Positions 12,003 through 38,802 of a DNA stretch of 41,440 bases are shown here, piece after piece. Source of the stretch: Bacteroidales bacterium. GTDB lineage: Bacteria > Bacteroidota > Bacteroidia > Bacteroidales > JAIPAP01. The stretch covers positions 1-41,440 of the forward strand of contig JAIPAP010000022.1 in NCBI GenBank assembly GCA_021740045.1, read 5' to 3'. The translations under genes were made by a program, and so were the position numbers. The stretch's first letter is position 1, and every line of letters starts with the position of its first letter. Under the pieces are notes generated by a model. That model saw nothing but the letters and a program-made list of their open reading frames with translations. It was not told where the DNA came from and did not search any database.

Positions 12003-12056
12003 GTCTCTCAGTCTCTTAGTCTCTCAGTCTCCCAGTCTCCCAGTCCCAGTCTCTCC
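12003..12056. repeat. octanucleotide tandem array, consensus GTCTCYCA
   Basis: GTCTCTCA|GTCTCTTA|GTCTCTCA|GTCTCCCA|GTCTCCCA|GTCCCA|GTCTCTCC. Confidence 0.9.
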
Positions 12057-14194
12057 CTCTCAATCAACACCTTCGCCATTATAGCATCCCAAATATAGTT
12101 CGAGGGGCAGTTGAGCACTTCATTATCGGCGCTGTATGATTCCCAGAAGTTATGATTTTTTGAAAGCTGCGTTTTCACGGCCAGCATCATTTTGCCGGCA
12201 AGTTCTTCAGCCACCTTATCATATCCATAATTCTTCAGTCCTTTAAACACCATATAATCCCACAGCAGCCAAACCGGCCCGTTCCACTTGCAACAGTAAT
12301 CCACATAAGGACTGTACCAGGGATCGGTGGCCGATAGGGTAGGGACTCCATATTTCCGCCAAAAAGTGGCGGTGTCGGTTAACTTATCAATAAGGATGGC
12401 GGCACGCTCTTCGGAAATGGCATTGGCCCATAAAGGCAAAAAGCCAATGATCTCGGGGCGTTTTAGGTCACGCTCCATAAACCGGAATGTATGGTTCTTT
12501 TTATCAACATGATAAAAGAACTGCGTTTCTTCATCCCACATACGTTCATTGATCAGCTTGATGATGTTTTGGGCCTTAGCATTCCAGTTTTGCTTTTCCT
12601 TATCTTTCCCCAATTCATCAGCCATGTAGGCCAGGTGATGTAATTCATTGACCACCATCAGGGAAAGATCCAAGCATTCCAATTCATTCGAAATATCTTC
12701 CTTATCAATATCCAGGTGCCGTTCTTCGGATACCTGGAAAATCACGTTGTACCAGTCACGCACGTTCTCGATCAAGCCATAAGGGCCCCATTCGAAAGTA
12801 CCGTCTTTGTCGTCATCACGGTTTTCATATAGCCAATTCACATAGTTTGTCCCGGAGGCATAAGCATCTTTCAGAAATCCCTTATCCTTGCTAACCTCAT
12901 AAACTTCCCAGTTAATCCAGGAATAAAATGGCGCCGATGTAGTGGGTTCACCTTTATGGGGATAGGCTTGTGTTCCGCGTGGCCCATGGCGATAAGCAAT
13001 AAGTCCGTCATCGCCCTGTTGTTCCATATAAACCCGTTGTGAACCTTGCGCTGATTCCCTGTCAAGATAAGCATAAGCCAGCATGCTGAGTGATTCATGC
13101 AAGACTTGATGACCATGCCCCCAGCCCCATTTGGGCTCACGGGAAAATACATAGAAATTATGGCCGGTTTGACCTGTGGGTGGGAGCATGCAACCCCGGG
13201 CCAGGTTGAACGCACTAAGGTAAACGAGCTTATCTTCGGGATTCGTAAAATCAATCCGTGGGATGGAAGCAAATAATTCGATATTCTTATCAACAAAGGG
13301 TTGAAGATCGACCTGACTAAGCGTAGTGATATCATTTAAAACTGGAGTTATATCACGTTCGCGGCTTTGCCAGCCCCGGGAAAAACGGATGGTTTTTGAT
13401 TCGCCTGTTGCTAATGTCATTCGGGAGTGAAGGGCGACAAAATCATATAGACCGGTGCTTTGCATATTTAGAGAGTCGCTGCGGTCATCGGAATAGTAAT
13501 CGGTTTTAATAATGTTATAGAAATTTTCCCGATTACCCTTATAAGCTCCGTAGGAATATGGCTTTTCATCCAGGGCAAAAATATCGCGGACATCGGCAGG
13601 GTAGGGCGCACCGGCGTATAGGTTACTAATCAGCCGCTTACGCGATTCGAAGTGATGGGTGATATATGCGTTGTGTTTTTTATTAAATCCCTTTACTTCC
13701 AGGGAATCATTACCCAATTCATAAACCGGGTACAACTCGATGATGTGTTTCATATCGGAGAGATTGGATATTTTCATGCTTACCAGGGCCATCGATGAGC
13801 TATAAACCAGAAAAGTTTGATGGACTTTCACTCCTTTCCAAATTTCATAATCAATAACGGCCATATCGGGGAACGAAGCCTTTACAACCGGTTGTTTGTG
13901 ATAATCTTCCGTATTTTCAACCACCACATCATTAACTTCCCAAATAGTATATAAGCGCCCGGATTGATCGCTTGAAAAGCTGAGTGGTTCATCCGGGCGG
14001 TCATAATGCATTTTGTAGCCTTTATCCGCATATAACCGGGATCGCTCCATTGCTGCTGTGTAGGTGGTATAGAGTGGTGCACCTGCTCCGGCATCGACTT
14101 TTAAAAAATCATCATAAATTTTAACTTCTTGTCCGTGTGAACTAATGAATTGAAAAACAATTGCTAAGACAAAAAGAATAAACAACTTTTTCAT
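12008..14194 (-). CDS. exported (alpha/alpha)6-barrel glucosidase, trehalase / GH63 (MGH1-like) type
   Basis: ORF 12008..14221. Likely start is the ATG at 14194 (MKKLFILFVLAIVFQFISSHGQ signal peptide). FYVFSREPKWGWGHGHQVLHESLSMLAYAYLDRESAQGSQRVYMEQQGDDGLIAYRHGP and CCKWNGPVWLLWDYMV. Confidence 0.82.
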   Translation of the reverse strand: MKKLFILFVLAIVFQFISSHGQEVKIYDDFLKVDAGAGAPLYTTYTAAMERSRLYADKGYKMHYDRPDEPLSFSSDQSGRLYTIWEVNDVVVENTEDYHKQPVVKASFPDMAVIDYEIWKGVKVHQTFLVYSSSMALVSMKISNLSDMKHIIELYPVYELGNDSLEVKGFNKKHNAYITHHFESRKRLISNLYAGAPYPADVRDIFALDEKPYSYGAYKGNRENFYNIIKTDYYSDDRSDSLNMQSTGLYDFVALHSRMTLATGESKTIRFSRGWQSRERDITPVLNDITTLSQVDLQPFVDKNIELFASIPRIDFTNPEDKLVYLSAFNLARGCMLPPTGQTGHNFYVFSREPKWGWGHGHQVLHESLSMLAYAYLDRESAQGSQRVYMEQQGDDGLIAYRHGPRGTQAYPHKGEPTTSAPFYSWINWEVYEVSKDKGFLKDAYASGTNYVNWLYENRDDDKDGTFEWGPYGLIENVRDWYNVIFQVSEERHLDIDKEDISNELECLDLSLMVVNELHHLAYMADELGKDKEKQNWNAKAQNIIKLINERMWDEETQFFYHVDKKNHTFRFMERDLKRPEIIGFLPLWANAISEERAAILIDKLTDTATFWRKYGVPTLSATDPWYSPYVDYCCKWNGPVWLLWDYMVFKGLKNYGYDKVAEELAGKMMLAVKTQLSKNHNFWESYSADNEVLNCPSNYIWDAIMAKVLIERERLGLGDWETERLRD

Positions 14195-14275
14195 ATTCCG
14201 TGCTTTTGGCTTCATTAACATGTTGCTAAGATATGAATATCTTTCTATCTTTGGTTACCATAAAACGATAGAACC

Positions 14276-14662
14276 ATGAGAAAGAAACATCTTAACCGGT
14301 TTTTGCTGTTGCTGCTTGTTCCGATTTTATTTTCCTGCAATTCGGCGCCATTGACTATGGTTGACAATGGCTCGGCCATCGATATTGCAAAAGGGGAAAC
14401 CTTCGACCTGGTGCTGGAGAGTACCAAAAAATCTGAAAAGGTGTGGGAACTCAGGGAAATGGATACTTCGGTGGTATCACTGGTGAATGGGCCCATATTC
14501 AATACCAAAAAGCATCTCGACAGCGAGATCATGGAGTATTTATACACCTTTAAGGGAGAACGACCGGGTACCACCACAATTCATTTGGTCCTGCATGATC
14601 CTGAAAATCCGGATAAACCGGCAAAAAAGGACTTTCGACTCACCGTGAAGGTTACGGAATAA
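14276..14662 (+). CDS. small lipoprotein, chagasin-like (I42 peptidase inhibitor) fold candidate
   Basis: 128 aa; lipobox LFSC; GETFDLVLESTKKSEKVWELREMDTSVVSLV ... GERPGTTTIHLVLHDPENP ... DFRLTVKVTE resembles the I42 beta-strand layout, but the canonical NPTTGY loop is not present. Confidence 0.65.
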   Translation: MRKKHLNRFLLLLLVPILFSCNSAPLTMVDNGSAIDIAKGETFDLVLESTKKSEKVWELREMDTSVVSLVNGPIFNTKKHLDSEIMEYLYTFKGERPGTTTIHLVLHDPENPDKPAKKDFRLTVKVTE

Positions 14663-14677
14663 GTTACCAATAGGGGC

Positions 14678-16747
14678 TTAATCCAGAATTATGTTATCCT
14701 GCTGCATATCCACCAGCATGCGGGCTACTATACCTGTCCAGATGTAAGCATGGTTCCAGCCGGCCTGTAAGTCGTCGGCACTGTAGAATTCCCAAAAAGT
14801 ATGATCTTTTTTCAGGTGATAGATCACATTTTTCATGACTCGTTCCGAAAGATCATCAGCCCTTTTGTCATAACCATAATCACGCAATCCGCGAGCAAGC
14901 AAGTACTGCCATTGTACCCAAATGGGCCCGTTCCAATAGCCAATGGGGTTGTAATAGGCATCGGCAGCCGAGAGGGTAGGAACACCGTAAGGCCTGTTAA
15001 ATTCAAACTGATTATCGAAATGCTCCAATAATTTTTTAACCTGAACATCCCTGGCCACGCCGGCCCACATCGGCAGAAAACCGATGATCTCCTTGCGCTT
15101 GAGGTCATTGGGGTTTTCAAAGGTGAAATCCTGGTCTTTCCGGTCCACATTGTAATAAAAGCCGTCCTTTGAATCCCAGCAGTATTGGTTGATTAATTCA
15201 CTACGCTTTCGAGCGGCATTATTCCACTTATCAGCCTCGGCGCCTTTATTCAAAAGATCAGCCATTGCGGCAAGAGAGCGGGCTTCTTTAACCATCATGG
15301 CGTTAATATCCGGTCCTTCGAAATTAGCCGGCCAACCAACTTTATCCCAGACTGCTACCCTGGCATCCCGCACACTTTCCAGCACTGCATGGGCGCCCCA
15401 TTCCAGCAAACCATCCCCATCCTTATCGCGGGTGGAATTCATGTACCGGTAATAAGCTTTTCCCGAGCGATAGGCCTCTTCCAGGAATGCTCTGTTCCCG
15501 CTTATTTTGTAGACTTCCAGGTTTTGATAGTTGAACCACGGCGCCGAACTGGTCATTAGCGAATCGCGCGGAATGTTCTCATTTAAATAAGGCCCAGTGC
15601 GGTAATTGATATACCCGTTTTCATGCTGCCGCTCCATAAAAACCCGCTGTGAATTCATAGCCCCTTCAGGATCCATCAAGGCGTAGGCCACCATCGCCAG
15701 GCTTTCGTGAAAGACTTGCCCACCATAACCCCATCCCCATTTGGGCTCACGCGAAAAAACATAATAATTGTAGCTACATTCTCCTTGGGGTGGCATCATG
15801 CATTGATGCATCAGGGTGAAGGCGCTCCAGTACATCAATTCTTTTTCGGGATCATTAAACTCGATTACAGGGATGCGTTTGTAGCGTTCTTCGGCTGCAC
15901 TTACGATCTCAGCGGGATCAACCTTTGCCAATTGATCAAGTGTCTTTTGTAGCCGGCTTTCACTAAGATCTTCTTCCGACCAGCCATGCATCATCCTGAG
16001 GGTAACAGATGTTCCGGGCTTAAGGGTAATATTCCCTGAATACGCCATTATCTCTGATGAAGCCTCACCGGAAACCTGTTCCTTTAACAACTGAAAAATA
16101 TAGGACTTTTTGTTCCTTAATGGCGCAAGGTGTGTCAAAGCTTCTTTATGCAAGCTAAAGAAACCATACATATCTTCCACCAGGGGAATATCATGTTTTT
16201 TCATCCATCCGTCGCGTGGTTTGTGATGTTTGAACAGATAAGTCCTGCTGGATCCATCCAATGTGACCGGATTTCTTTTTTGATTGTACCGGTATAGGTA
16301 TGGGATCAACTGAAGATTTAATATTTTACAATGGTCATTAGTGATGGTGAGTTCATACCAAGCCCCCCGGGAGCTATACGTATTGAAAACTGCTTCCACC
16401 TTAACGTGCTTAAAAGGACGATAATGAAAGCGTACAATGTCGTTGTAGGATGTGGTGATGACAGGTTCGCCATAAAACTCACCCGGTTGCAGGCGAAAAA
16501 TGCTGTCAACACCTATTCCCATACCCAAATTAACCCCACGTTGTGAGATAAACTCCAGCGGATGCTTTTCATCGAACCACATCATCCGGTAACCCTGATC
16601 CAATTTATAATCAGAGCGGCTCATGGGGGCTGCATAGGTGGTGTATAGCGGATCATTTGCAGTAAGCTGAAGATCAGACAAAAACTGACCTTTTACACTT
16701 GTAAACAGGCTGGCTATAATGCCCATGATAACTAGTATTCGTCTCAT
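14678..16747 (-). CDS. exported (alpha/alpha)6-barrel glucosidase, trehalase / GH63-like; paralogue of the gene at 12008..14194
   Basis: 689 aa; YYVFSREPKWGWGYGGQVFHESLAMVAYALMDPEGAMNSQRVFMERQHENGYINYRTGP; GYWNGPIWVQWQYLLARGL; signal peptide MRRILVIMGIIASLFTSVKG. Confidence 0.82.
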   Translation of the reverse strand: MRRILVIMGIIASLFTSVKGQFLSDLQLTANDPLYTTYAAPMSRSDYKLDQGYRMMWFDEKHPLEFISQRGVNLGMGIGVDSIFRLQPGEFYGEPVITTSYNDIVRFHYRPFKHVKVEAVFNTYSSRGAWYELTITNDHCKILNLQLIPYLYRYNQKRNPVTLDGSSRTYLFKHHKPRDGWMKKHDIPLVEDMYGFFSLHKEALTHLAPLRNKKSYIFQLLKEQVSGEASSEIMAYSGNITLKPGTSVTLRMMHGWSEEDLSESRLQKTLDQLAKVDPAEIVSAAEERYKRIPVIEFNDPEKELMYWSAFTLMHQCMMPPQGECSYNYYVFSREPKWGWGYGGQVFHESLAMVAYALMDPEGAMNSQRVFMERQHENGYINYRTGPYLNENIPRDSLMTSSAPWFNYQNLEVYKISGNRAFLEEAYRSGKAYYRYMNSTRDKDGDGLLEWGAHAVLESVRDARVAVWDKVGWPANFEGPDINAMMVKEARSLAAMADLLNKGAEADKWNNAARKRSELINQYCWDSKDGFYYNVDRKDQDFTFENPNDLKRKEIIGFLPMWAGVARDVQVKKLLEHFDNQFEFNRPYGVPTLSAADAYYNPIGYWNGPIWVQWQYLLARGLRDYGYDKRADDLSERVMKNVIYHLKKDHTFWEFYSADDLQAGWNHAYIWTGIVARMLVDMQQDNIILD

Positions 16748-19700
16748 TATTCACGGTGATTTTTCAGGTGTACAACTATGGTTTTACGAATGTATTGGCC
16801 TTCCTCACCGCATGCTTCAACCTTCAGCAGATCAACATTGCCTTCTTTTTGCATATATTCGGCCTTTTCCACTTTTGTTACAAGCTCCCCGGGATCATAT
16901 AGCCGGAGCTGATCTTTTTCCGCGGCCAGCATTTCTGTTTCAATGATGTATTGAGCTCCATCCAGGTAAGCATCGATAATGCGGATCCCTTTTGATTGAT
17001 AACCCGGCTTGGGATCGGATAAAGCAGGCAAAACGCTGATCCCCGGCTTATAGCTGATCTCCAGTTTATGCGATTGCTTCACCTCCAGGTTGACGCTAAC
17101 CTCTTCTAATTGCCGTTTTTGGTTGATTTGATATTCAAGGGGTTTTCCGTCGAATAAAACATGCTCAACCACAACACCTGGCTCCAGTGCAGGTTGAAAG
17201 TGAACTACAAGCGGATTATCCCCGGAATGATTCAGGGAATAAATTGCCTGTCCGTTTGTTTTGGTCAGCACCAGATGCATGCGGTGATCACCAACTGCAA
17301 TATTCTTCACCGTTACCGTATCCCAATCAAAAGGAAAACGGGGCGATAAGGACAAGGCATCTTCCGGGGCATCGGGTTGCAGGCCCAGCATACCTTCGAG
17401 GGCAGGCTGCAATACCATGGTTTCCGACCAGCATTGATGGCGGCATACGCCTGAGGGTTTGTATTCCTTTCCATGCAATACCTCTTCCACAAAGCCTTTG
17501 GCCCAGTGGCGGTAGACTTTCAGGTTATTCATTACATGGGCATGACCTTGTAACCAGCGATCCTGTTGATATTCAGCAAGAGCGGTCCAACCGGTATACA
17601 AAGGCCAGACACTTCCGGTATGATAACCCCTCGGATTAAAGTCAGGACTTGCTTCACTGATAATACGCACACCCCAATCGGCAGTGTAGTAATTGGAAGC
17701 CAGGTTATTTAAAACCTTTTGGGCTTTTCCGGGTTCGGCATCGGAAAAATAGGTGGGTATGGCCGGCATAATGGTTTGTGCCTGGTGGTAACTGCCGTCT
17801 TTGTACTTTCCATGATAATAGAACCCATGTTCTTCATCCCAGAATTCAGTATTGATGATGGCTATAACCTTTTCCGAATCGTTTCTGTATTTTTCAGCCA
17901 AAGCGGTTTTACCCAGTTTTGTTGCCATATATTCAGCTTGCTCCAGGGCTTCGGCCCAGCACCCTGCAAGATAAAGGGATGTGTGTGATCCGAATAAGCT
18001 GCCACCTTCCACCCAGCCATGCCCAACGTTGGTATTCTCTATCAAATGGTCACCGTCGGTATCGGTGGAATAGCAGAAATCAATGGCTTTTTCAATATGT
18101 GGCCAGCTGTTGCGGATAAACTCCAAATCACCGGAATGATGAAGGTATTTTCCGGCCAATACGATATAAAGCGGGGTGGCATCCGAGGCATCGTAATGCA
18201 CTACACCGGAGGTGGTCAGTTCATGGTATATCTTACCCGACAGATCCTGGTAATCCTGGTAAGTTTCCAAAATTCGTTTAACTTTATGAAAGTCCCCGTA
18301 ATCAAGCAAGGCATAACCGCTCCATTGCCCATCGCGGCCAAAATACCAGGCATAGCCCGGGCGTCCATTCACTTTATGCTCACCGTCCCAGCCACTGGCC
18401 GTTGTAGCATAGCCTGCAACAAGCGATGAAGCCACACCCGGAGTATTAACAAAAAAGCGATCCGAACCAACCACTGACCAGGCATAGCCTTCATTAAACA
18501 CTGCATCAGGACTTTCAATCATTAAGTGCTTGTTCAGCAGCTTTTTGCTATAGGATGCCATTGCTTTCAAAGGGTTTAGTGGATCAACCATCAATGCTTT
18601 AAAAGCATTATGGGCATCATTTAAACTTTGGGTTGAAGTGGAAATCATAACATCCATGTTATCATTCATTTCCAGGTTAAATGACGCAAGAGCATATAAT
18701 TGAAATTTGTCCGTTTTTGTGGTTACCACATGATCATCAAACGGCATTAATGAATCATATCGACCTATCCGGGTATCATAAGGTCGCTTATTCATACCCA
18801 ACACGCACACCTGATCTTCCAGCTTGTTCTTCCAGATAAACGCATTGAAAGCCGAATCCCAGGCATAGTCAATACCTTGAAGCACCTTTCCGGAGTATGG
18901 CCACATCAGCCTTAAGTTGCTTTTAAACCGGATAAATAATTCAGCCGGATATACTCCACGGTATTCGTAATGTACTGTCGATTTGGCATCAACAGGACAT
19001 ACCGAAACTATTTCTTTAAGGTATGCCCGACGAAAACGATAAAGCCTGGAGAAAGCCTCCGGCATAATTTCTACCTGCGGCTTTTCCTGATCAAGCCAAA
19101 AAATGGTATCGGCATAGGAAAAGCGGATACCCACTTCATAATCGCGCAAAGCCATAAAAGGATGTGCCCATATTTCCTCGATACCGCCCTTTTCGCGTCC
19201 CATGATCAACATCTGTTGCCCGGCTACGTCCCAAAAATTATCGGTAGCAAAGCGACGTTCCAGCTTTAATGCGGGTTTAGCTGTATTCCAGGTTTTGGCT
19301 GGAACAAGAGGAATTTTATCAAGGGACGGAGTAAATGATTGCACCTTTTGCTCTCCAAAATGCCAGTAATGCTCCCTTTTGTCTTTTTCCCTCCCGCCAA
19401 GGTATTGAAAAACATTCTGCATAAAGGTTTCAAGGTGAGGCCGGTTGTGATTACCGGCTGAAAAAGCCGTATAGGCACCAACAGCCAGTACCTTTCCTTT
19501 ACCGTATTTATATTCCACCATCAGTTTAGTCGATTCCCTGAGAAATATATAATCCCAATCAACGGCAATCACATTTCCGCTGGCAGGCATTTGGTCTTCG
19601 AAGAATCCATGTTGCCTTACTGTAGTATCACTGGTTGGTTTCCAAACATAAGCGCCTCCATAAAGCCCTTTAAACACAGGATGTGACTTAAAGGCATGCA

Positions 19701-20166
19701 ATCCCAGCTTGCGGCCGTAACCCGAATCCCTGGCTTCTTTTTGCCGGGTTTCAGGCTTGTTTTTTTCCAAGTCCAAATCCATCAGAAAGGGAAAGGCTTC
19801 AAGGGTAAGTAAAATATTCCCGCCTTTTCCGACATATTCTTTCAAGCGGTTAATATGCTCCTGTTTCCGGAAAACCGGCGGCATACCGGTGGTATCATTC
19901 CAATGAAACCAAATTAGATCTTGATTTTGAAGTCTTTTAGGAGCAGTAGTCAACTCATTCAGGGTGTATTTTTCAAAGGCGACCTCATCCAATTGTTTCA
20001 GATAATCAACGGCAGCCCTTAATTCCTTCTCAGCCTGGGGAGAAACATCTTCCGGATAGATCAAAGCAAGAGTTATTGTTTCATTACCGGCAAAAATATG
20101 TTGATTCAACCCCGACAATAACAAGCTTAAAATTATGGATTTCAGTAAAGTAAATCGATTGTTCAT
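16747..20166 (-). CDS. large exported protein: N-terminal glutamine-amidotransferase-like (ThuA/DUF4960-like) domain plus amylo-alpha-1,6-glucosidase-like catalytic domain
   Basis: 1139 aa; N-terminus LALIYPEDVSPQAEKELRAAVDYL...LIWFHWNDTTGMPP...GGNILLTLEAFPFLMDLDL; later GYAWYFGRDGQWSGYALLDYGD, DADGDHLIENTNVGHGWVEGG-type segment, RGYHTGSVWPLYTGWTALAEYQ. Stop overlaps the next gene's start (TAATG). Confidence 0.8.
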   Translation of the reverse strand: MNNRFTLLKSIILSLLLSGLNQHIFAGNETITLALIYPEDVSPQAEKELRAAVDYLKQLDEVAFEKYTLNELTTAPKRLQNQDLIWFHWNDTTGMPPVFRKQEHINRLKEYVGKGGNILLTLEAFPFLMDLDLEKNKPETRQKEARDSGYGRKLGLHAFKSHPVFKGLYGGAYVWKPTSDTTVRQHGFFEDQMPASGNVIAVDWDYIFLRESTKLMVEYKYGKGKVLAVGAYTAFSAGNHNRPHLETFMQNVFQYLGGREKDKREHYWHFGEQKVQSFTPSLDKIPLVPAKTWNTAKPALKLERRFATDNFWDVAGQQMLIMGREKGGIEEIWAHPFMALRDYEVGIRFSYADTIFWLDQEKPQVEIMPEAFSRLYRFRRAYLKEIVSVCPVDAKSTVHYEYRGVYPAELFIRFKSNLRLMWPYSGKVLQGIDYAWDSAFNAFIWKNKLEDQVCVLGMNKRPYDTRIGRYDSLMPFDDHVVTTKTDKFQLYALASFNLEMNDNMDVMISTSTQSLNDAHNAFKALMVDPLNPLKAMASYSKKLLNKHLMIESPDAVFNEGYAWSVVGSDRFFVNTPGVASSLVAGYATTASGWDGEHKVNGRPGYAWYFGRDGQWSGYALLDYGDFHKVKRILETYQDYQDLSGKIYHELTTSGVVHYDASDATPLYIVLAGKYLHHSGDLEFIRNSWPHIEKAIDFCYSTDTDGDHLIENTNVGHGWVEGGSLFGSHTSLYLAGCWAEALEQAEYMATKLGKTALAEKYRNDSEKVIAIINTEFWDEEHGFYYHGKYKDGSYHQAQTIMPAIPTYFSDAEPGKAQKVLNNLASNYYTADWGVRIISEASPDFNPRGYHTGSVWPLYTGWTALAEYQQDRWLQGHAHVMNNLKVYRHWAKGFVEEVLHGKEYKPSGVCRHQCWSETMVLQPALEGMLGLQPDAPEDALSLSPRFPFDWDTVTVKNIAVGDHRMHLVLTKTNGQAIYSLNHSGDNPLVVHFQPALEPGVVVEHVLFDGKPLEYQINQKRQLEEVSVNLEVKQSHKLEISYKPGISVLPALSDPKPGYQSKGIRIIDAYLDGAQYIIETEMLAAEKDQLRLYDPGELVTKVEKAEYMQKEGNVDLLKVEACGEEGQYIRKTIVVHLKNHRE

Positions 20167-24847: not shown

Positions 24848-25543
24848 CTATTCATTAAAATTCCATGAACCCCGCTTGGTGGGGTAGCTCAAGGCTGTTT
24901 CCAGTTTTTGTAAAAATTGTCGCCTATCCATTAATTCGCCACCCATCCGTTTCATATGACCGGTTTCCACCTGTGAATCGATCAAGTGAAAATCCCATGA
25001 TTTTAAGGCTTTGCAAAGGTAATACAAAGCCACCTTGGAGGCATCAGGCTTAAGATGAAACATCGATTCGCCAAAGAACATTTTTCCCAGTGATACCCCA
25101 TACAAGCCACCCACCAATTCATGGTTAAAGTAAGTTTCTACCGAATGGGCATAGCCTTCCTTGTGAAAACGGTTGTAAGCTTGCTTCATATCTTCGGTTA
25201 TCCAGGTTCCATGCTGCCACGGACGCGGTACCCTGGCACATTGGTTGATCACTTCCTTAAAGTTGTGGTCGAATTTCACAGTGATCTGGCTGTTGTTCAG
25301 GGAAGCCCGCAAGCTCTTACTAACTTTCATTTTTTCAGGATACAGAACCATCCTGGGTGCGGGGCTCCACCAAAGTAACGGAAATCCATCTTCATACCAG
25401 GGAAATATCCCCTTACGATAAGCTTCTAAGAGCCTTGGTATGGTCAGGTTTCCGCCAACAGCTACTAAACCCTCTTCATCCGCAGCATCTTCAACAGAAG
25501 GAAATTCCATTTGTTCATCCAGCAAATAAACAGGCCCACTCAT
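24848..25543 (-). CDS. aat: leucyl/phenylalanyl-tRNA--protein transferase
   Basis: 231 aa; EEGLVAVGGNLTIPRLLEAYRKGIFPWYEDGFPLLWWSPAPRMVLYPEKMKVSKSLR; GGLYGVSLGKMFFGESMFHLKPDASKVAL. Confidence 0.97.
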   Translation of the reverse strand: MSGPVYLLDEQMEFPSVEDAADEEGLVAVGGNLTIPRLLEAYRKGIFPWYEDGFPLLWWSPAPRMVLYPEKMKVSKSLRASLNNSQITVKFDHNFKEVINQCARVPRPWQHGTWITEDMKQAYNRFHKEGYAHSVETYFNHELVGGLYGVSLGKMFFGESMFHLKPDASKVALYYLCKALKSWDFHLIDSQVETGHMKRMGGELMDRRQFLQKLETALSYPTKRGSWNFNE

Positions 25544-26679
25544 CGCTTAATTATCATCTTTTTACAAATTGTTTTTTCGGAGCTTGAAAATTCAAGGATA
25601 TATACGCCATCACCCATAAATGACGGTACATTAATTCTGTTACTTCCTGCTATACAGCTAAACACGGTTTGTCCGTGCAAGTCCTTAATTTTCATAATGC
25701 CTTCATGGGTAACGCCGGTTAAGGTAAATGTATTCTTTACCGGATTGGGAGTGATCTTAATTTGTGACAAGGAAGGTGATTGCAGACCGGTCAAGATTTC
25801 TTCCTGTTGATTATCAATTGAAAATGGATGAAACCAAAACTTGTGTGCTCCTTCGGCACCCGGGTAGGGCAGGGAAGTGGTATTGGTTGTAGATAGAGCC
25901 TTAATGTAGTAGTTAACTGTATCTTCTTTTTCGAGACCCTGCAATGTTGTTTGATAGATATTACCTGAGTTCGCCATCAGTTTTTCGGTAAACGGCAAAT
26001 TTGGGTTTGTCCGGTAATACAGCTTCACATTATCAACCGGGTTATGGCTTGTGACAATGCATTTAAATTCTATCTCATCACAAAATGCAACGGGACCGGT
26101 TATCTTCGAATGCCTGATCAATAATTTGTCGGCTTCCGGGATTTCACGGGTAATACAATGAATAGCTCCGTATAAGGGTGTTAGCACTCTTGCATCAACC
26201 AACTCGATGCGATACCCGGGCATAGCTTCCTCATAAATATTCTCAGCAATCGTATCGAATGGCATGTCATAGGAAGGAACGATCACTGCATCATTGATGG
26301 TGAGGGAATTGGTATAAGTACGCATTTCATCATTCAGGGTAGTGGCATACGTTCCATCGTCCTTAGGAGGGGCCGGAACACGTATGATCTTGTAATTCCG
26401 TATACCGGTAGTATCCATGGGGGCAATACCAGGGTAATAAATGATCCATACTTTTGCCGATTCCTGAACAGCCCCGGCAATCGCAGCTGTAACCGGGTTG
26501 CGGCTATAACTGTAGTCCCATGTAAGAAATATCCCCTCACTAGGGTCAAATTCAGCGGGAGTTATGGGGATTGATTGGGCAAACAAACCTTTTTCCACGC
26601 TCAAGACCAGCATGCCTCCCAAAATCAAGAGCAAGAGTTTTTGCATCATCTTAAATGCGTTAGTTATGTAATAGTACAT
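25540..26679 (-). CDS. T9SS-sorted protein with an internally truncated agmatine deiminase / peptidylarginine deiminase (PAD_porph) domain
   Basis: 379 aa; signal peptide; ITPAEFDPSEGIFLTWDYS (deiminase N-terminus); YTNSLTINDAVIVPSY...AMPGYRIELVDARVLTPLYGAIHCITREIP (deiminase C-terminus); C-terminal sorting domain ITPNPVKNTFTLTG...VYILEFSSSEKTICKKMIIKR. Confidence 0.85.
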   Translation of the reverse strand: MYYYITNAFKMMQKLLLLILGGMLVLSVEKGLFAQSIPITPAEFDPSEGIFLTWDYSYSRNPVTAAIAGAVQESAKVWIIYYPGIAPMDTTGIRNYKIIRVPAPPKDDGTYATTLNDEMRTYTNSLTINDAVIVPSYDMPFDTIAENIYEEAMPGYRIELVDARVLTPLYGAIHCITREIPEADKLLIRHSKITGPVAFCDEIEFKCIVTSHNPVDNVKLYYRTNPNLPFTEKLMANSGNIYQTTLQGLEKEDTVNYYIKALSTTNTTSLPYPGAEGAHKFWFHPFSIDNQQEEILTGLQSPSLSQIKITPNPVKNTFTLTGVTHEGIMKIKDLHGQTVFSCIAGSNRINVPSFMGDGVYILEFSSSEKTICKKMIIKR

Positions 26680-32782: not shown

Positions 32783-32790
32783 TACATTTG
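32783..32790 (+). promoter_or_regulatory. candidate -7 box upstream of the cobalamin riboswitch
   Basis: TACATTTG matches TAnnTTTG, 5 nt before the riboswitch P1 stem; no clear -33 TTTG seen. Confidence 0.45.
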
Positions 32791-32795
32791 CACCT

Positions 32796-32982
32796 GTTAA
32801 TGGTGCGCTTGATTGATAAACTGATGATCAAGCCATAATAGGGAACCGGGTTAGAATCCCGGACAGTTCCCGCTGCTGTGAACTCCATTAGCGTTTCGGT
32901 AACCGCTTGCCACTGTATCGCCTCAGGCGATATGGGAAGGCCACCGGAACAGGAGTAAGTCAGAAGACCTGCCATTAGTAAC
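32796..32982 (+). ncRNA. cobalamin (AdoCbl-type) riboswitch
   Basis: Conserved core visible: GGGAACCGGGTTAGAATCCCGGACAGTTCCCGCTGCTGTGAAC, GCCACTG, GGGAAGGCCACCGGAACAGGAGTAAGTCAGAAGACCTGCC; P1 pairing GTTAATGG / CCATTAGTAAC. Confidence 0.95.
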
Positions 32983-33104
32983 TATCAAAGCTTTCGGGAT
33001 AAAAGCTGAGAGATAATGACACTCCTATTCATTACTTCTCCTTTTTTTCCTGATGGTTTTGTGGTTTTACAATTGAATGTATGTTAAACCAAAAAACCAT
33101 TATC

Positions 33105-34793
33105 ATGAAGAAATTTTCCATCGCAACAGGAATTATTATCCTGATTTTAACAACAATTCAGTTAGCTGCCCAAAACAAAGTACTACTGGTTAATGGCGGG
33201 CAATATGGTAATCCCGATGAAAACCCCAATGCTTTAGTCATCGATCCTGAAACCGGTAATTACTCAGTGATAGACACACTTGCTTCCCCCTCGGTACAGG
33301 ATGTTTTGGTTGAAGAGAATACAGCGTACATTGCCGCGCAGGATTCAATTTACAAATATGCTGTTGAAAACGGTGAGCAGCTTGCTGCAGTTAGCTTTGG
33401 CTCCATCAGCACAGTATCATTGAAGATTTATGGCGATTATTTGCTGGTAGGCAACTGGTATGGTTCAACGGATAACAATTTAAGGGTGTTCCAAAAAGAT
33501 GATTTGAGTTTTGTAAAAAGCATCGAAGGGGTAACAAAAGGGGCCAAAGATATGGTGATTGCCGGAGATAGCGCTTTTGTGACACAGAATTACACCTCAA
33601 CCAGTTGGACAGACTCGGCCGGCTATTTTGCAGTGGTCGATCTTAAAGACCTTGAATTTACAAGAAACATCTATATTGATAACGATGATGAAGACCTTGG
33701 CAGGCTTACCATTTATAACAATATGATCACCGCCTTAAATCCATACAGCAATACGATAACTACTTATAATATCAACAGCGGCGAAGCGGAAACAAATAGC
33801 TTTCCATATTCGGTTGATGTTAATGATTACGGCTCACAAATGGTTAGAGAGGGGAATATGCTTTATTTCGCTTTCAACAGTGGCTTGGGATCCTTTAACC
33901 TGGAAACCCAGGAAGTTGTCAATGAACAGATTATTGATACCATGATTACGGCCTTTACCATGGATACGGTTGCCGGCAGGTTTTTTGTTACCCAAACCGA
34001 TTATGCCAGTTATCGGCGGGGCCTGGTTTATTCACAAGACGGAAGTTTTATAAAGGAATTCCCCGTGGGCTATTCCCCCGAGGTTTTAACGCTGCTTTAT
34101 GAAGAGGAACTATTCACTTTTGATGACATTGAATTCTGGATTGGTGAGGGATCAAAAAAGGCTTGTTTTGTAATTGACTGGAATGACAACCTTGATCCGG
34201 TTTCGCTGGCGTGGGGTTACCGCTGGGATGGCGAAGCCAATGCAGAAGCCATGATGCAGGCTATTAATGAAACCGACCCCTATCTCCAAATTGCCATGGG
34301 GGGTGGTTTTTTGAATGATATCCTGTATGACCTCCATCAAGATGGATCATGGTCGCATAGCGGAATTGGCGGTGATCCTGATTATTGGAGCACCTGGAGC
34401 AAGGGCCCCTCATCCGAATGGGAAATGAATACCGGCCTGGGAACAAGCCTGAACAACGGCGCCTGGTTTGGCTGCTCCTATGGCTTTGAACCGGAAGCCA
34501 CACCTCCCGATCATCCTGAAGCCGCTCCCAATACTTTAACCGGCCTGGATGAAAGCAATGATCAGCTTCTGATTGATATAAATACCTTGAGTGATCAAAT
34601 TTCTGTCAAATCCCATAAAACGACCGTTAAAAGCTGGCGTATCGTCAATTTGTCGGGAAAGACTACCCTGAAGCAGGATTCATTAGCAGACAAAGCATTG
34701 CAAATTGGCATTCAGGGCCTGCCCAGTGGCGTATATTTGCTGAAACTGGAAACTGGGGAAGGAAATTTTTCACATAAATTCTACAAGAATTAA
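33105..34793 (+). CDS. T9SS-sorted surface protein: N-terminal beta-propeller (YncE/BtuG-like) plus a 'GYRWDG' domain plus C-terminal sorting domain
   Basis: ORF 33081..34793; likely start MKKFSIATGIII at 33105. Propeller-like repeats (NALVIDPETGNYSVIDTLASPSVQDVLVEENTAYIAAQDSIYKY...), FWIGEGSKKACFVIDWNDNLDPVSLAWGYRWDGEANAEAMMQAI, C-terminal LSGKTTLKQ...GLPSGVYLLKLETGEGNFSHKFYKN. Confidence 0.85.
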   Translation: MKKFSIATGIIILILTTIQLAAQNKVLLVNGGQYGNPDENPNALVIDPETGNYSVIDTLASPSVQDVLVEENTAYIAAQDSIYKYAVENGEQLAAVSFGSISTVSLKIYGDYLLVGNWYGSTDNNLRVFQKDDLSFVKSIEGVTKGAKDMVIAGDSAFVTQNYTSTSWTDSAGYFAVVDLKDLEFTRNIYIDNDDEDLGRLTIYNNMITALNPYSNTITTYNINSGEAETNSFPYSVDVNDYGSQMVREGNMLYFAFNSGLGSFNLETQEVVNEQIIDTMITAFTMDTVAGRFFVTQTDYASYRRGLVYSQDGSFIKEFPVGYSPEVLTLLYEEELFTFDDIEFWIGEGSKKACFVIDWNDNLDPVSLAWGYRWDGEANAEAMMQAINETDPYLQIAMGGGFLNDILYDLHQDGSWSHSGIGGDPDYWSTWSKGPSSEWEMNTGLGTSLNNGAWFGCSYGFEPEATPPDHPEAAPNTLTGLDESNDQLLIDINTLSDQISVKSHKTTVKSWRIVNLSGKTTLKQDSLADKALQIGIQGLPSGVYLLKLETGEGNFSHKFYKN

Positions 34794-34795
34794 TC

Positions 34796-35779
34796 ATGAA
34801 TAAGAAATCAATTATAATACTCGAACTTCTTCTGTTTATTTGTTCATTGAGTATGGCTCAGTTTCCTCCTGCCGCAGGGCAGGAGGGGACCACTGCCATC
34901 CATGCCGAAAGTGCGGCTTTTATTGAATGGGCCGTATCGTGTGAGATCGATCGGGGTTGGATCAATGTTGATGATCAGGAGCAGGGAAAAGCTACCCACG
35001 GAACTAATGCAGAGGGCATTGGCAAACCCGATAATAGCGTAGTTAGCCTGGGCGATGGTGGAAAAGCCACCTTAAGTTTTGATATCCCCATCATTGATGG
35101 CGAAAACTGGGATTTTGCTGTTTTTGAAAACAGTTTTTCCGATTATTTTCTGGAACTGGCCTTTGTTGAAGTAAGTTCCGATGGGGAGCATTTCTTTCGC
35201 TTCCCTGCCATTTCCTTAACTCAAACCGAAACTCAAATCGGGGGCTTTGATTCCCTGTATCCAACCAATCTCCACAACCTTGCTGGAAAATACCGGGGCT
35301 ATTATGGAGTGCCCTTCGATATAGCCGAATTACCAGATACATCCCTTCTGGATAAAGATAGCATAGTCGCCGTAAGGCTGGTTGATGTGATAGGAAGCAT
35401 TCACCCCGATTATGCTACTTATGACAGTGAAAGCAACATTGTAAATGATCCGTGGCCCACGGTTTTTGAATCGTCGGGATTTGACCTCGATGCCGTTGGT
35501 GTGATCCATAACCGGAACTCTTTAGGCCTGAGTGATCCGCATGATGAGGAAAATATGAGGGTATATCCCAATCCAGCACACAATTATTTAAAACTGGAAA
35601 CAGGAAATAATAACATTGATGAAATCAGGATAGTTAATCTTGAAGGGCGGCCCATTAAATATTTCAAGGCAATGGATTCAAAAGCACGAATCGATATTAG
35701 TGATCTTGAAAGGGGGACATACCTGCTAAGGATAACTGCCGGGGAAAACCGTTATAACAAATTGGTCATCTGCAAATAG
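34796..35779 (+). CDS. T9SS-sorted cell-surface protein (VSLGDGGKATLSF...DFAVFENSF...GFDLDAVGVI family)
   Basis: 327 aa; signal peptide; LSFDIPIIDGENWDFAVFENSFSDYFLELAFVEVSSDGEHFFRFPAISLT and FESSGFDLDAVGVIHN; C-terminal YPNPAHNYLKLETGNN...GTYLLRITAGENRYNKLVICK. Confidence 0.85.
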   Translation: MNKKSIIILELLLFICSLSMAQFPPAAGQEGTTAIHAESAAFIEWAVSCEIDRGWINVDDQEQGKATHGTNAEGIGKPDNSVVSLGDGGKATLSFDIPIIDGENWDFAVFENSFSDYFLELAFVEVSSDGEHFFRFPAISLTQTETQIGGFDSLYPTNLHNLAGKYRGYYGVPFDIAELPDTSLLDKDSIVAVRLVDVIGSIHPDYATYDSESNIVNDPWPTVFESSGFDLDAVGVIHNRNSLGLSDPHDEENMRVYPNPAHNYLKLETGNNNIDEIRIVNLEGRPIKYFKAMDSKARIDISDLERGTYLLRITAGENRYNKLVICK

Positions 35780-35789
35780 GGGAGATAAG

Positions 35790-37709
35790 GTGTTTAAGAT
35801 TCAAAGCGTTTTAGGTTTATTTATTTTGCTTTTAACTACGCACTTCGGCATGGCTCAAAACGATACGTTGAGCCTGAAAGCGGTGGAAATTAAAAGTACG
35901 GTGATCGAAAAGATCAGCGGTTTTAAAAAGACCGAGATCGATTCGGCCACGCACAGTCTGAACCGGGCTGAGGATTTATCGGACATTCTGGCCCGTCATA
36001 CACCTGTATTTATTAAAAGCTATGGACAGGGGATGTTGGCTACATCCTCGTTCAGGGGTACCGGAGCTTCACATACGCAGGTGCTATGGAATGGCATGAC
36101 CATTAATTCCCCCATGCTGGGCCAGGTTGATTTCTCAACCATTCCGGTGTTTTTCACCGATCGCATTTCGCTTTATCATGGTGGCAGCTCGTTGGCATTG
36201 AATTCGGGGGCCCTTGGCGGGAGCATTAACCTGGAAAATGTGGCCAATTGGAAAGCCAATTCAGGATTAGCTATTTCGCACCGGCAAGGCAGTTTTAATA
36301 CGCAATCATCATTTATGGAAATCAGGGTGAAGGAGAACAATATTCTAACAACCACCCGCTTGCTTCATAAGTCGTCTGAAAATGATTTTCCGTTTAAAAA
36401 TAATGCCATTTCAAGGGAACATCCCCCGGTTGATCACCGTAAGAATGCCTCCTTTGATCAATATGGTATTATGCAGGAGGTTTACCATCAAACCGAAAAA
36501 AGTGGTATTTTTAGTGTAAAAGCCTGGTGGCAGGATCATTTTCGCGAGATCCCAACTCCCCTGCTTGTTCCTGTATTTAAGCAACACCAGGAAAGCAAGG
36601 CCTTAAGGAGTGCTGCGCAATGGGACTTGAAGAAAAACAAAACGGAATACATGGCCAGGGCCGGTTACCAAAACGAACGCCTGGATTATTATAACGGCCT
36701 TTCAGGGCTAAACAACACCAACTGGGTGAGTAGCTTTTTCGGTGATTTTAAGATCAAACAGCAATTTGAAAAATTCAGGATGAATGCAGCCATCCGGCAT
36801 GAACATCATAGCGTGGAAGCTGATAATTATGCTTCGGATAAAACCAGGGATAAAACCTCGCTGGTGGGGGGAGCAAGGTATTTGTCAGGGAACCGGTTTT
36901 CGGCATTCATTCAGATAAGACAGGATTATGCCGATGATGAATTTTTGCCGATCATTCCTTCACTAGGATTCGACCTGCTGATAGCCAGGGATTATAACCT
37001 TTTTCTCAAAGCCAATGCTTCCCGTAATTATCATTTGCCTTCATTAAACGATCTTTACTGGAGCCCTAACGGCAATCCAAACCTGGAACCTGAGGAAGGA
37101 TATTCGGTGGAAACCGGCTTTATGATCAAGGAATTGAAAATGAAGAAGACACGCTTCAATGCGGAGATCACCGGATTTTATTCCCACATTAATAATTGGA
37201 TTCATTGGAAGCCCGATGAGATATATAGTTATTGGAGGCCATCCAATTTGCGGAAGGTAAGGTCACATGGCTTGGAATCATCGGTCGATATAGGGTTTTA
37301 CCTTGGAAATTTCCGTTTGACCTATAAGGGCGGATATACCTTCACTGTTACGGAGAATGGAGCAGCCATTGTGGATAATGATGCCTCCGTTAACAAACAA
37401 CTAATTTATATTCCACGTCATATGCTCCATTCCATCATAAGGATGAATTACCGGAAATGGTATGTTTCATATGGCACGCATTACACGGGAAAGCGTTTTA
37501 CCACAAGCGATAATTCACGATATATGCCCTCATACTGGATAGCCGATTTTTCAGTTGGATGGCAGCCGCAAGTGCGCGGAAACCGCTTTGTTATCCAACT
37601 GGATGTGAATAACCTGTGGAATAACGATTACCAGTCGGTTGCCTGGCATCCGATGCCTGGCAGAAACATTCATCTTAAAATAGGTTTAAGGATCGATAAT
37701 ACCGAATAA
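35790..37709 (+). CDS. TonB-dependent outer-membrane receptor, BtuB-like
   Basis: 639 aa from a GTG start; plug SSFRGTGASHTQVLWNGMTINSPMLGQVDFSTIPVFFTDRISLYHGGSSLALNSGALGGSINLEN; barrel strands RNYHLPSLNDLYWSPNGNPNLEPEEGYSVETGF; last strand near the C-terminus. Confidence 0.9.
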   Translation: MFKIQSVLGLFILLLTTHFGMAQNDTLSLKAVEIKSTVIEKISGFKKTEIDSATHSLNRAEDLSDILARHTPVFIKSYGQGMLATSSFRGTGASHTQVLWNGMTINSPMLGQVDFSTIPVFFTDRISLYHGGSSLALNSGALGGSINLENVANWKANSGLAISHRQGSFNTQSSFMEIRVKENNILTTTRLLHKSSENDFPFKNNAISREHPPVDHRKNASFDQYGIMQEVYHQTEKSGIFSVKAWWQDHFREIPTPLLVPVFKQHQESKALRSAAQWDLKKNKTEYMARAGYQNERLDYYNGLSGLNNTNWVSSFFGDFKIKQQFEKFRMNAAIRHEHHSVEADNYASDKTRDKTSLVGGARYLSGNRFSAFIQIRQDYADDEFLPIIPSLGFDLLIARDYNLFLKANASRNYHLPSLNDLYWSPNGNPNLEPEEGYSVETGFMIKELKMKKTRFNAEITGFYSHINNWIHWKPDEIYSYWRPSNLRKVRSHGLESSVDIGFYLGNFRLTYKGGYTFTVTENGAAIVDNDASVNKQLIYIPRHMLHSIIRMNYRKWYVSYGTHYTGKRFTTSDNSRYMPSYWIADFSVGWQPQVRGNRFVIQLDVNNLWNNDYQSVAWHPMPGRNIHLKIGLRIDNTE

Positions 37710-37713
37710 AGTC

Positions 37714-38802
37714 ATGAAGTTTATCTTAAACAGCTTAACATACGTTCTTATTTCTACACTGGTCTTCACAACAGCCTGTTCCGATGATGATTTCGGGGAA
37801 GTGAGTGTGGAGAATTCTCTTATTGATATTGAGGAAGGTGTATTTATTGTGAATGAAGGGAATTTTGGTCAGAATTCAAGTTCCATTTCATTCTTTAGTT
37901 ATGATTCACTATCCGTGACCAATAATGTATTTTTTAATGCCAATAACCGCCCCCTGGGCGATGTAACCCAGTCAATGACCATCATTGACACCCTTGGATT
38001 TGTAGTGGTTAACAATTCGGGCAAAATCGAGGTGATGGATCTTGATAACGGCAATTCCGTTTCTACCATCAGCGGGCTCCCTTCACCCCGTGCAATTATT
38101 CAAATAAACCGGGCTAAGGCTTATGTAAGTGATTTTAGGTCCGATTCCATCGCAATTATTGATGTGAATAACTTTTCAATCACCGGTTATATTAATTTGG
38201 GCAGAACTTCGGAGTGTTTTATGAAGTTCGCCGGGGTTGTTTTTGTATGTAATTGGTCGGAATTTTATCAACCGGATAAGAAAAATGACCAGGTTGTGGT
38301 AATTGACGCTGTCACCAATCAGGTTATCGATTCCATAAGGGTTGTTAAAGAGCCCAACAGCATGGTTATTGATAATAACGGAAAACTTTGGGTGCTCAGC
38401 AGCGGGGGATTTCAAAACGATGAAACACCGGCTTTGCAATGCATCGATCCAATTGAGCGGAAGATTGATAAAAAGTTCCTTTTTCCCGATGTCAATTCCT
38501 CTCCTGAGGACTTGGTTATTAATAAATCGGGCGATACCTTATTATTTGTAAATAACGACATCTATAAAATGCCCGTATCAGCTGCTGCATTGCCATCAAC
38601 ACCTCTGGTTCAGGCTAATGAGCGTAATTTCAAAGCCATGGATGTCGACCCTGAAACTTCCCGGATATTTACGGCCGACGCTCTTGATTACCAGCAAAAA
38701 GGAATTGTGTATGAATATACCTTTCAAGGTGATGAAGTACGTTCATTCCGGGCAGGCATTATTCCGGGCGATTTCGCATTTTATCACCGGCACAAGGAAT
38801 AG
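37714..38802 (+). CDS. surface lipoprotein beta-propeller, YncE/DUF5074 family, BtuG-like
   Basis: 362 aa; lipobox VFTTAC; FIVNEGNFGQNSSSISFF, IAIIDVNNFSITGYINLGRTSECFMKFAGVVFVCNW, DQVVVIDAVTNQVIDSIRVVKEPNSMVIDNNGKLWVLSSGG. Confidence 0.85.
   Translation: MKFILNSLTYVLISTLVFTTACSDDDFGEVSVENSLIDIEEGVFIVNEGNFGQNSSSISFFSYDSLSVTNNVFFNANNRPLGDVTQSMTIIDTLGFVVVNNSGKIEVMDLDNGNSVSTISGLPSPRAIIQINRAKAYVSDFRSDSIAIIDVNNFSITGYINLGRTSECFMKFAGVVFVCNWSEFYQPDKKNDQVVVIDAVTNQVIDSIRVVKEPNSMVIDNNGKLWVLSSGGFQNDETPALQCIDPIERKIDKKFLFPDVNSSPEDLVINKSGDTLLFVNNDIYKMPVSAAALPSTPLVQANERNFKAMDVDPETSRIFTADALDYQQKGIVYEYTFQGDEVRSFRAGIIPGDFAFYHRHKE

Follow-up and report, generated by a model that had tools for sequence, protein, structure and literature searches.

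A cobalamin-riboswitch locus of a Bacteroidales bacterium encodes two candidate T9SS-exported corrinoid-capture proteins ahead of BtuB and BtuG

What role do two proteins tagged for the type IX secretion system (T9SS) play between a cobalamin riboswitch and the genes of a vitamin B12 receptor? This question is raised by a four-gene locus on contig JAIPAP010000022.1 of a Bacteroidales bacterium (assembly GCA_021740045.1), of which the whole stretch of 41,440 nucleotides that was analyzed is referred to here as the window. The first two genes encode the T9SS-tagged proteins, designated P1 and P2, and the last two encode BtuB and BtuG. On the basis of sequence comparisons and structural models, P1 and P2 are, with high probability, two additional T9SS-exported corrinoid-capture proteins that feed BtuBG in a B12-repressed outer-surface acquisition operon. 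The locus consists of the following features, given in window coordinates.

32784..32990, + strand: cobalamin riboswitch aptamer RF00174 (cmscan 100.4 bits, gathering threshold 31.5, E 4e-24, model positions 1-189, complete)
33008..33048, + strand: terminator-like hairpin with a run of seven T (T7), the likely expression platform as judged from RNA folding
33105..34793, + strand: P1, gene 1, 562 amino acids (aa), with signal peptide, BtuG-like propeller, P1C domain, and T9SS type A tail
33177..34085, + strand: P1 propeller, a putative distant BtuG paralogue, residues ~25-327 (hhalign against the BtuG family)
34095..34559, + strand: P1C domain, divergent DUF4430/transcobalamin-beta-like, residues ~331-485, single copy in the window
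34590..34790, + strand: P1 T9SS type A sorting domain (TIGR04183 34.0 bits, PF18962 29.6 bits)
34796..35779, + strand: P2, gene 2, 327 aa, with signal peptide, BtuH-like domain, and T9SS type A tail
34853..35533, + strand: P2 predicted ligand-binding-type domain (AlphaFold2 model, Foldseek)
35561..35776, + strand: P2 T9SS type A sorting domain (TIGR04183 47.0 bits, PF18962 52.5 bits)
35790..37709, + strand: BtuB-type TonB-dependent receptor, gene 3, 639 aa, GTG start, plug and barrel (best PDB matches 8bmx_C, 8p97_A, and 8p98_A)
37714..38802, + strand: BtuG surface lipoprotein, gene 4, 362 aa, propeller, DUF5074 (PF16819) (8p97_B E 2.6e-62, 3dsm E 6e-61)

Judged by sequence, genes 3 and 4 clearly belong to the Bacteroides BtuBG system, as the initial annotation had proposed in calling them a BtuB-like receptor and a BtuG-like lipoprotein. 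The top PDB match of gene 3, which has both the TonB plug and the barrel, is BtuB of Bacteroides thetaiotaomicron (8bmx_C, E 1.5e-85); its score lies below the TIGR01779 equivalog cut-off (99.1 versus 599.7 bits), yet this model is the best of all NCBIfam models. Gene 4 matches B. thetaiotaomicron BtuG (8p97_B and 3dsm, above), starts 4 nucleotides after btuB and, by eye, encodes a lipobox ending in TTAC followed by an acidic SDDD. In B. thetaiotaomicron loci, the high-affinity surface binders BtuG, BtuH, BtuJ, and BtuK1 lie beside BtuB and include a BtuG propeller-BtuH fusion (PMC12751083, PMC10404256). The present locus resembles these BtuBG loci (PMC10404256, PMC8941943, PMC12751083) in its cobalamin riboswitch, its BtuB and BtuG homologues, and the extra surface proteins in the operon. 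It differs from them in that their extra binders are lipoproteins, whereas P1 and P2 are predicted T9SS cargo.

No other RF00174 site occurs in the assembly, which totals 3.9 Mb on 161 contigs and is 97% complete. The riboswitch precedes four same-strand genes separated by 2, 10, and 4 nucleotides, in agreement with the arrangement first read from the sequence. Downstream of the aptamer, a hairpin stem at 33008-33040 followed by CTTTTTTT has a folding energy of -8.0 kcal/mol (z -2.8), better than nearly all shuffles. Such a hairpin with CTTTTTTT 3′ of the aptamer is compatible with an OFF switch that would act through transcription termination. A second strong predicted hairpin occupies 33049-33102 and ends just 5′ of the P1 start codon (33105). 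By eye, TACATTTG (32783-32790), at the aptamer's 5′ boundary, fits the Bacteroides -7 consensus TAnnTTTG; this promoter candidate lacks an exact -33 TTTG, and the promoter scan did not report it.

Relatives of P1 and P2 are nearly always encoded in B12-uptake operons, and the two are therefore probably additional B12-catching proteins. Most of the related loci come from metagenome-assembled genomes. A P2 query against 84,980 species genomes returned 30 loci, 27 of which have at least ~1 kb of upstream DNA and are usable; a same-strand upstream cobalamin riboswitch is present in 26 of these 27, and BtuB or BtuG is encoded within the fetched stretch at 23 of the 30. An independent P1 query found relatives in 12 other genomes, with a riboswitch (Rfam or core motif) at 11, the exception being L157. 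The initial annotation had named a lack of such associations in other genomes as grounds for abandoning its proposal; the associations were found for both families. A strong P2 match is present in roughly 115-120 of 395 Bacteroidia genomes sampled across the class. Where a genome has a listed BtuG match, 77 P2 genes could be placed relative to BtuG: 51 share its strand at a distance of up to 6 kb, all but one (50/51) upstream of it; of the remaining 26, 20 were examined, and 11 of these have a cobalamin or adenosylcobalamin (AdoCbl) riboswitch. No BtuGH fusion occurs among the matches listed in the class-wide BtuG search.

Several individual loci add detail. On a contig labelled Deltaproteobacteria (L068:1935-5404), two cobalamin riboswitches and a c-di-GMP-I-GGC riboswitch precede a putative DUF4465-like gene with an MNTPAY motif, beside a P2 gene. 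Both products end in PEP-CTERM-like tails rather than T9SS tails, so the capture domains appear to stay together while the export tag changes, which suggests transfer between phyla with a swap of the tag. At L011:1258-2508 (- strand), a P1-propeller homologue lies directly 3′ of a cobalamin riboswitch, with an S15 leader adjoining on the opposite strand; these two RNA elements occupy 2605-2785 and 2831-2898. Four P2 genes (L137, L141, L149, and L153) stand alone: the stretch fetched around each contains neither a riboswitch nor BtuB or BtuG. Tandem P2 pairs occur in single riboswitch loci at L050:4912-7218 and L051:4693-7008, the first member of each having an extra C-terminal region (~430 aa). 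P2-core-related proteins give seven or more matches in several genomes of one family, and at L134:2966-10738 and L136:989-10658, 4-5 such paralogues of 469-804 aa, at least one of them T9SS-tagged, are arrayed in tandem with no B12 genes nearby.

What kind of protein is P2? Apart from its tail, it matches no Pfam domain. Its AlphaFold2 model has a predicted local distance difference test score (pLDDT) of 90.9, and among 350,542 PDB chains Foldseek ranks BtuG1 with its BtuH domain and two BtuH2 chains first to third. The model points to P2 as a remote BtuH-like protein rather than an established BtuH. The BtuH domain (7BIZ, 8BLW) accounts for these three top fold matches and occurs in the same kind of locus; in contrast to BtuH, P2 has neither lipobox nor PKD domains, carries a T9SS tail, and aligns with a template modeling (TM) score of ~0.4. 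In L060 and L085, P2 is fused to DUF4465, the family of BtuJ (PMC13398666, PMC12751083), for which B12 binding has been shown in eight divergent members (PMC13398666). P1 and P2 are not themselves DUF4465 proteins: this assignment was considered and ruled out, since no Pfam match to DUF4465/BtuJ occurs in P1, P2, or the genome.

P1 is more elaborate. The initial annotation described gene 1 as a propeller protein with a T9SS C-terminus, which was right for both parts but overlooked the P1C domain between them. Single-sequence searches with P1 (Pfam, phmmer) match the tail only and give no propeller hit. When P1 propellers are aligned by hhalign with an independent BtuG set (BtuG alone compared), the result is a probability of 99.3 and E 2.8e-20, with 295 collinear columns at 14% identity; because propellers resemble one another, the end-to-end collinearity weighs more than the score. 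The P1 propeller thus appears to be a distant homologue of BtuG. P1 has no lipobox but a T9SS tail, so it is not a surface lipoprotein of the BtuG kind.

P1C, ~150 residues long and absent from Pfam as such, is present in relatives one to three times per protein, together with a T9SS tail. It is also found fused to P2 (L083), as a 262-aa lipoprotein-like protein (L161), and N-terminal of a DUF5074 propeller, in the reverse order to P1 (L160 and L159, 1105 and 1442 aa); no homology between P1C and P2 was found. Two-copy members match DUF4430 (PF14478; L044, E 1.9e-13), as do 7 of 25 single P1C-family domains, and hhalign links the subtype in the window to the DUF4430-like subtype (type A versus type B, 99.6%, E 1.8e-23). 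The AlphaFold2 model of P1C (pLDDT 72.5) has the order E-E-E-H-E-E(hairpin)-E-E-E, the hairpin directly following the helix. Its best Foldseek matches (E 0.05-0.13) are 3u7z, which we take to be a DUF4430-type protein, 2pmv (intrinsic factor, probability 0.94), 3kq4, and 8ixt, intrinsic factor and transcobalamin chains being included. Searched against the PDB, the all-member P1C profile gives nothing and that of the DUF4430-like subset only chance matches. Structure prediction, which the initial annotation had put forward as a check, leads at the level of fold from P2 to BtuH chains and from P1C to DUF4430, intrinsic factor, and transcobalamin.

A bacterial transcobalamin-like clade, defined by a hairpin after the helix and including a beta-propeller fusion in Clostridium, has been predicted by Burroughs et al. 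to scavenge B12 (PMC1796856). P1C resembles this transcobalamin-like SLBB/DUF4430 clade (PMC1796856) in that its relatives match PF14478 and its model has a beta-grasp-like strand order, but it occurs in Bacteroidota B12 operons, and the copy in the window is too divergent for the Pfam model. Overall, P1C appears to be distantly related to the beta domain of human intrinsic factor and transcobalamin. In those proteins the beta domain is paired with an alpha/alpha toroid, whereas P1C is paired with a BtuG-like propeller or repeated in tandem. P1 also resembles BtuG1/BtuGH of B. thetaiotaomicron, in which a BtuG propeller is fused to a second, B12-binding domain; the differences are that the transcobalamin-like domain replaces BtuH and that the genome lacks BtuJ/DUF4465.

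Are P1 and P2 exported, and does the organism need B12? The two T9SS tags noted initially are secure, as both type A tails exceed the curated cut-offs of TIGR04183 (23) and PF18962 (27), and a gene for SprA, a protein of the T9SS translocon, is present in the genome (2691 bits). P1 and P2 are hence predicted T9SS type A cargo. The genome contains two B12-dependent MetH activation domains, while CbiC was not found in a genome search; together these make the organism look like a corrinoid user that is unable to make B12 de novo. As already reported for the window, no btuFCD or corrin-synthesis genes were seen there among ten of the larger products scanned (btuFCD was not searched for outside it). 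Another T9SS-tagged protein in the window (25543-26679) matches just the C-terminal part of PF04371, the Porphyromonas-type peptidyl-arginine deiminase. Elsewhere (12011-20166), three clustered minus-strand proteins have MGH1/trehalase-like glycoside hydrolase domains.

These features suggest how the locus may work. When B12 is scarce, the riboswitch would let transcription pass the terminator-like hairpin. The gate for uptake would consist of BtuG, a surface lipoprotein, and BtuB, a TonB-driven channel, an arrangement demonstrated for their close B. thetaiotaomicron relatives. P2 would serve as a remote BtuH-like binder and P1 as a BtuG-like propeller joined to a domain related to the beta domain of transcobalamin and intrinsic factor. 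Given this two-domain make-up, P1 probably holds B12 either at one site per domain or between the domains. In the human carriers, the corrinoid is clamped between the alpha/alpha toroid and the beta domain. By analogy, P1 could be a composite, T9SS-delivered, and retrievable carrier in which the propeller and the transcobalamin-like beta-grasp domain clamp one corrinoid, a proposal that is offered only tentatively. The initial annotation had spoken of capture and release factors; the riboswitch/BtuBG context and the B12-binding-type folds support capture, whereas release is unsupported.

Several observations weigh against assigning corrinoid capture to P1 and P2 in a B12-repressed operon. (i) A single transcript for the four genes is suggested by their spacing alone. 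(ii) Of the 20 P2 genes that were examined because they do not lie near BtuG, 9 have no riboswitch; some of these 9 stand alone and some are cut off by contig ends. (iii) Other genomes encode T9SS proteins of the wider P2 superfamily without the riboswitch motif and with BtuB/BtuG nearby at L135 only, so the fold is not B12-specific; the core-motif scan used here finds 42 of 53 known sites, misses 11, and is less sensitive than Rfam, which makes its negatives weak. (iv) The likeness of P2 to BtuH chains is at fold level only (E 2e-4 to 2e-3, best 2.2e-4; TM 0.41-0.45), and the P2 profile's match in 8blw_B, over its BtuH region (E 0.0015), is gone when a domain-only P2 profile is searched against the PDB. 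(v) P1C of the window does not match the Pfam DUF4430 model. (vi) The fold matches of P1C have E values of ~0.05 or more and are about equaled by many binary-toxin pore chains; the fold by itself is thus insufficient for a transcobalamin claim.

Of the alternatives, the one that survives best is a variant compatible with corrinoid capture, in which P1 and P2 are not anchored at the surface but released as siderophore-like B12 carriers ("corrinophores"). T9SS type A cargo may be either released or anchored, and the vesicle-borne BtuJ of B. thetaiotaomicron acts at a distance; against release, attachment to lipopolysaccharide is common for such cargo, and surface sorting is also suggested by the PEP-CTERM-like tails on the two L068 proteins. 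Released carriers are a possibility, if a rather doubtful one. A poorer account makes P1 and P2 structural or assembly partners of BtuBG that do not bind corrinoids and instead act in docking, lid control, or vesicle release. It has precedents in B. thetaiotaomicron, where BtuL promotes vesicle release without binding cobalamin and BtuK2 does not bind, and it would sit well with the branches of the wider P2 superfamily outside B12 loci. However, the nearest solved folds of P2 are B12-binding BtuH proteins, P2 is fused to DUF4465 in relatives, and P1 combines a BtuG-like propeller with a transcobalamin-like domain, which leaves a purely structural role improbable. Most improbable of all is a role for P1 and P2 as general T9SS surface proteins, such as adhesins or glycan binders, placed in the operon by chance: with weak E values, the P2 model additionally hits carbohydrate-binding modules (CBM32 and others), and related proteins form tandem arrays without B12 genes, but the riboswitch association spans Bacteroidales, Flavobacteriales, Chitinophaga-type genomes, and the Deltaproteobacterium contig.

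Corrinoid capture by P1 and P2 remains the preferred reading. As T9SS-tagged DUF4465 B12-binders have already been reported, the concept of T9SS-exported B12-binders is not new. No description of the P1C and P2 families in a B12 role was found in the open-licence literature. New here are, by sequence comparison, (i) the P1C family, tied to B12 operons, as what appears to be a relative, in Bacteroidota, of the beta domain of transcobalamin, (ii) the recurrent joining of P1C to BtuG-like propellers, and (iii) P2 as a widely distributed family that is linked to riboswitches and has no Pfam domain. If the assignment is correct, P1C and P2, two extracellular families without such annotation, would join the B12-capture repertoire, and the export route (lipoprotein, T9SS, or PEP-CTERM-like) would be interchangeable while the capture domains persist. 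The handover of B12 from surface capture proteins to BtuBG would become approachable with new binders, and the B12 uptake operons of Bacteroidota would be seen to include a domain distantly related to that of the human B12 carriers.

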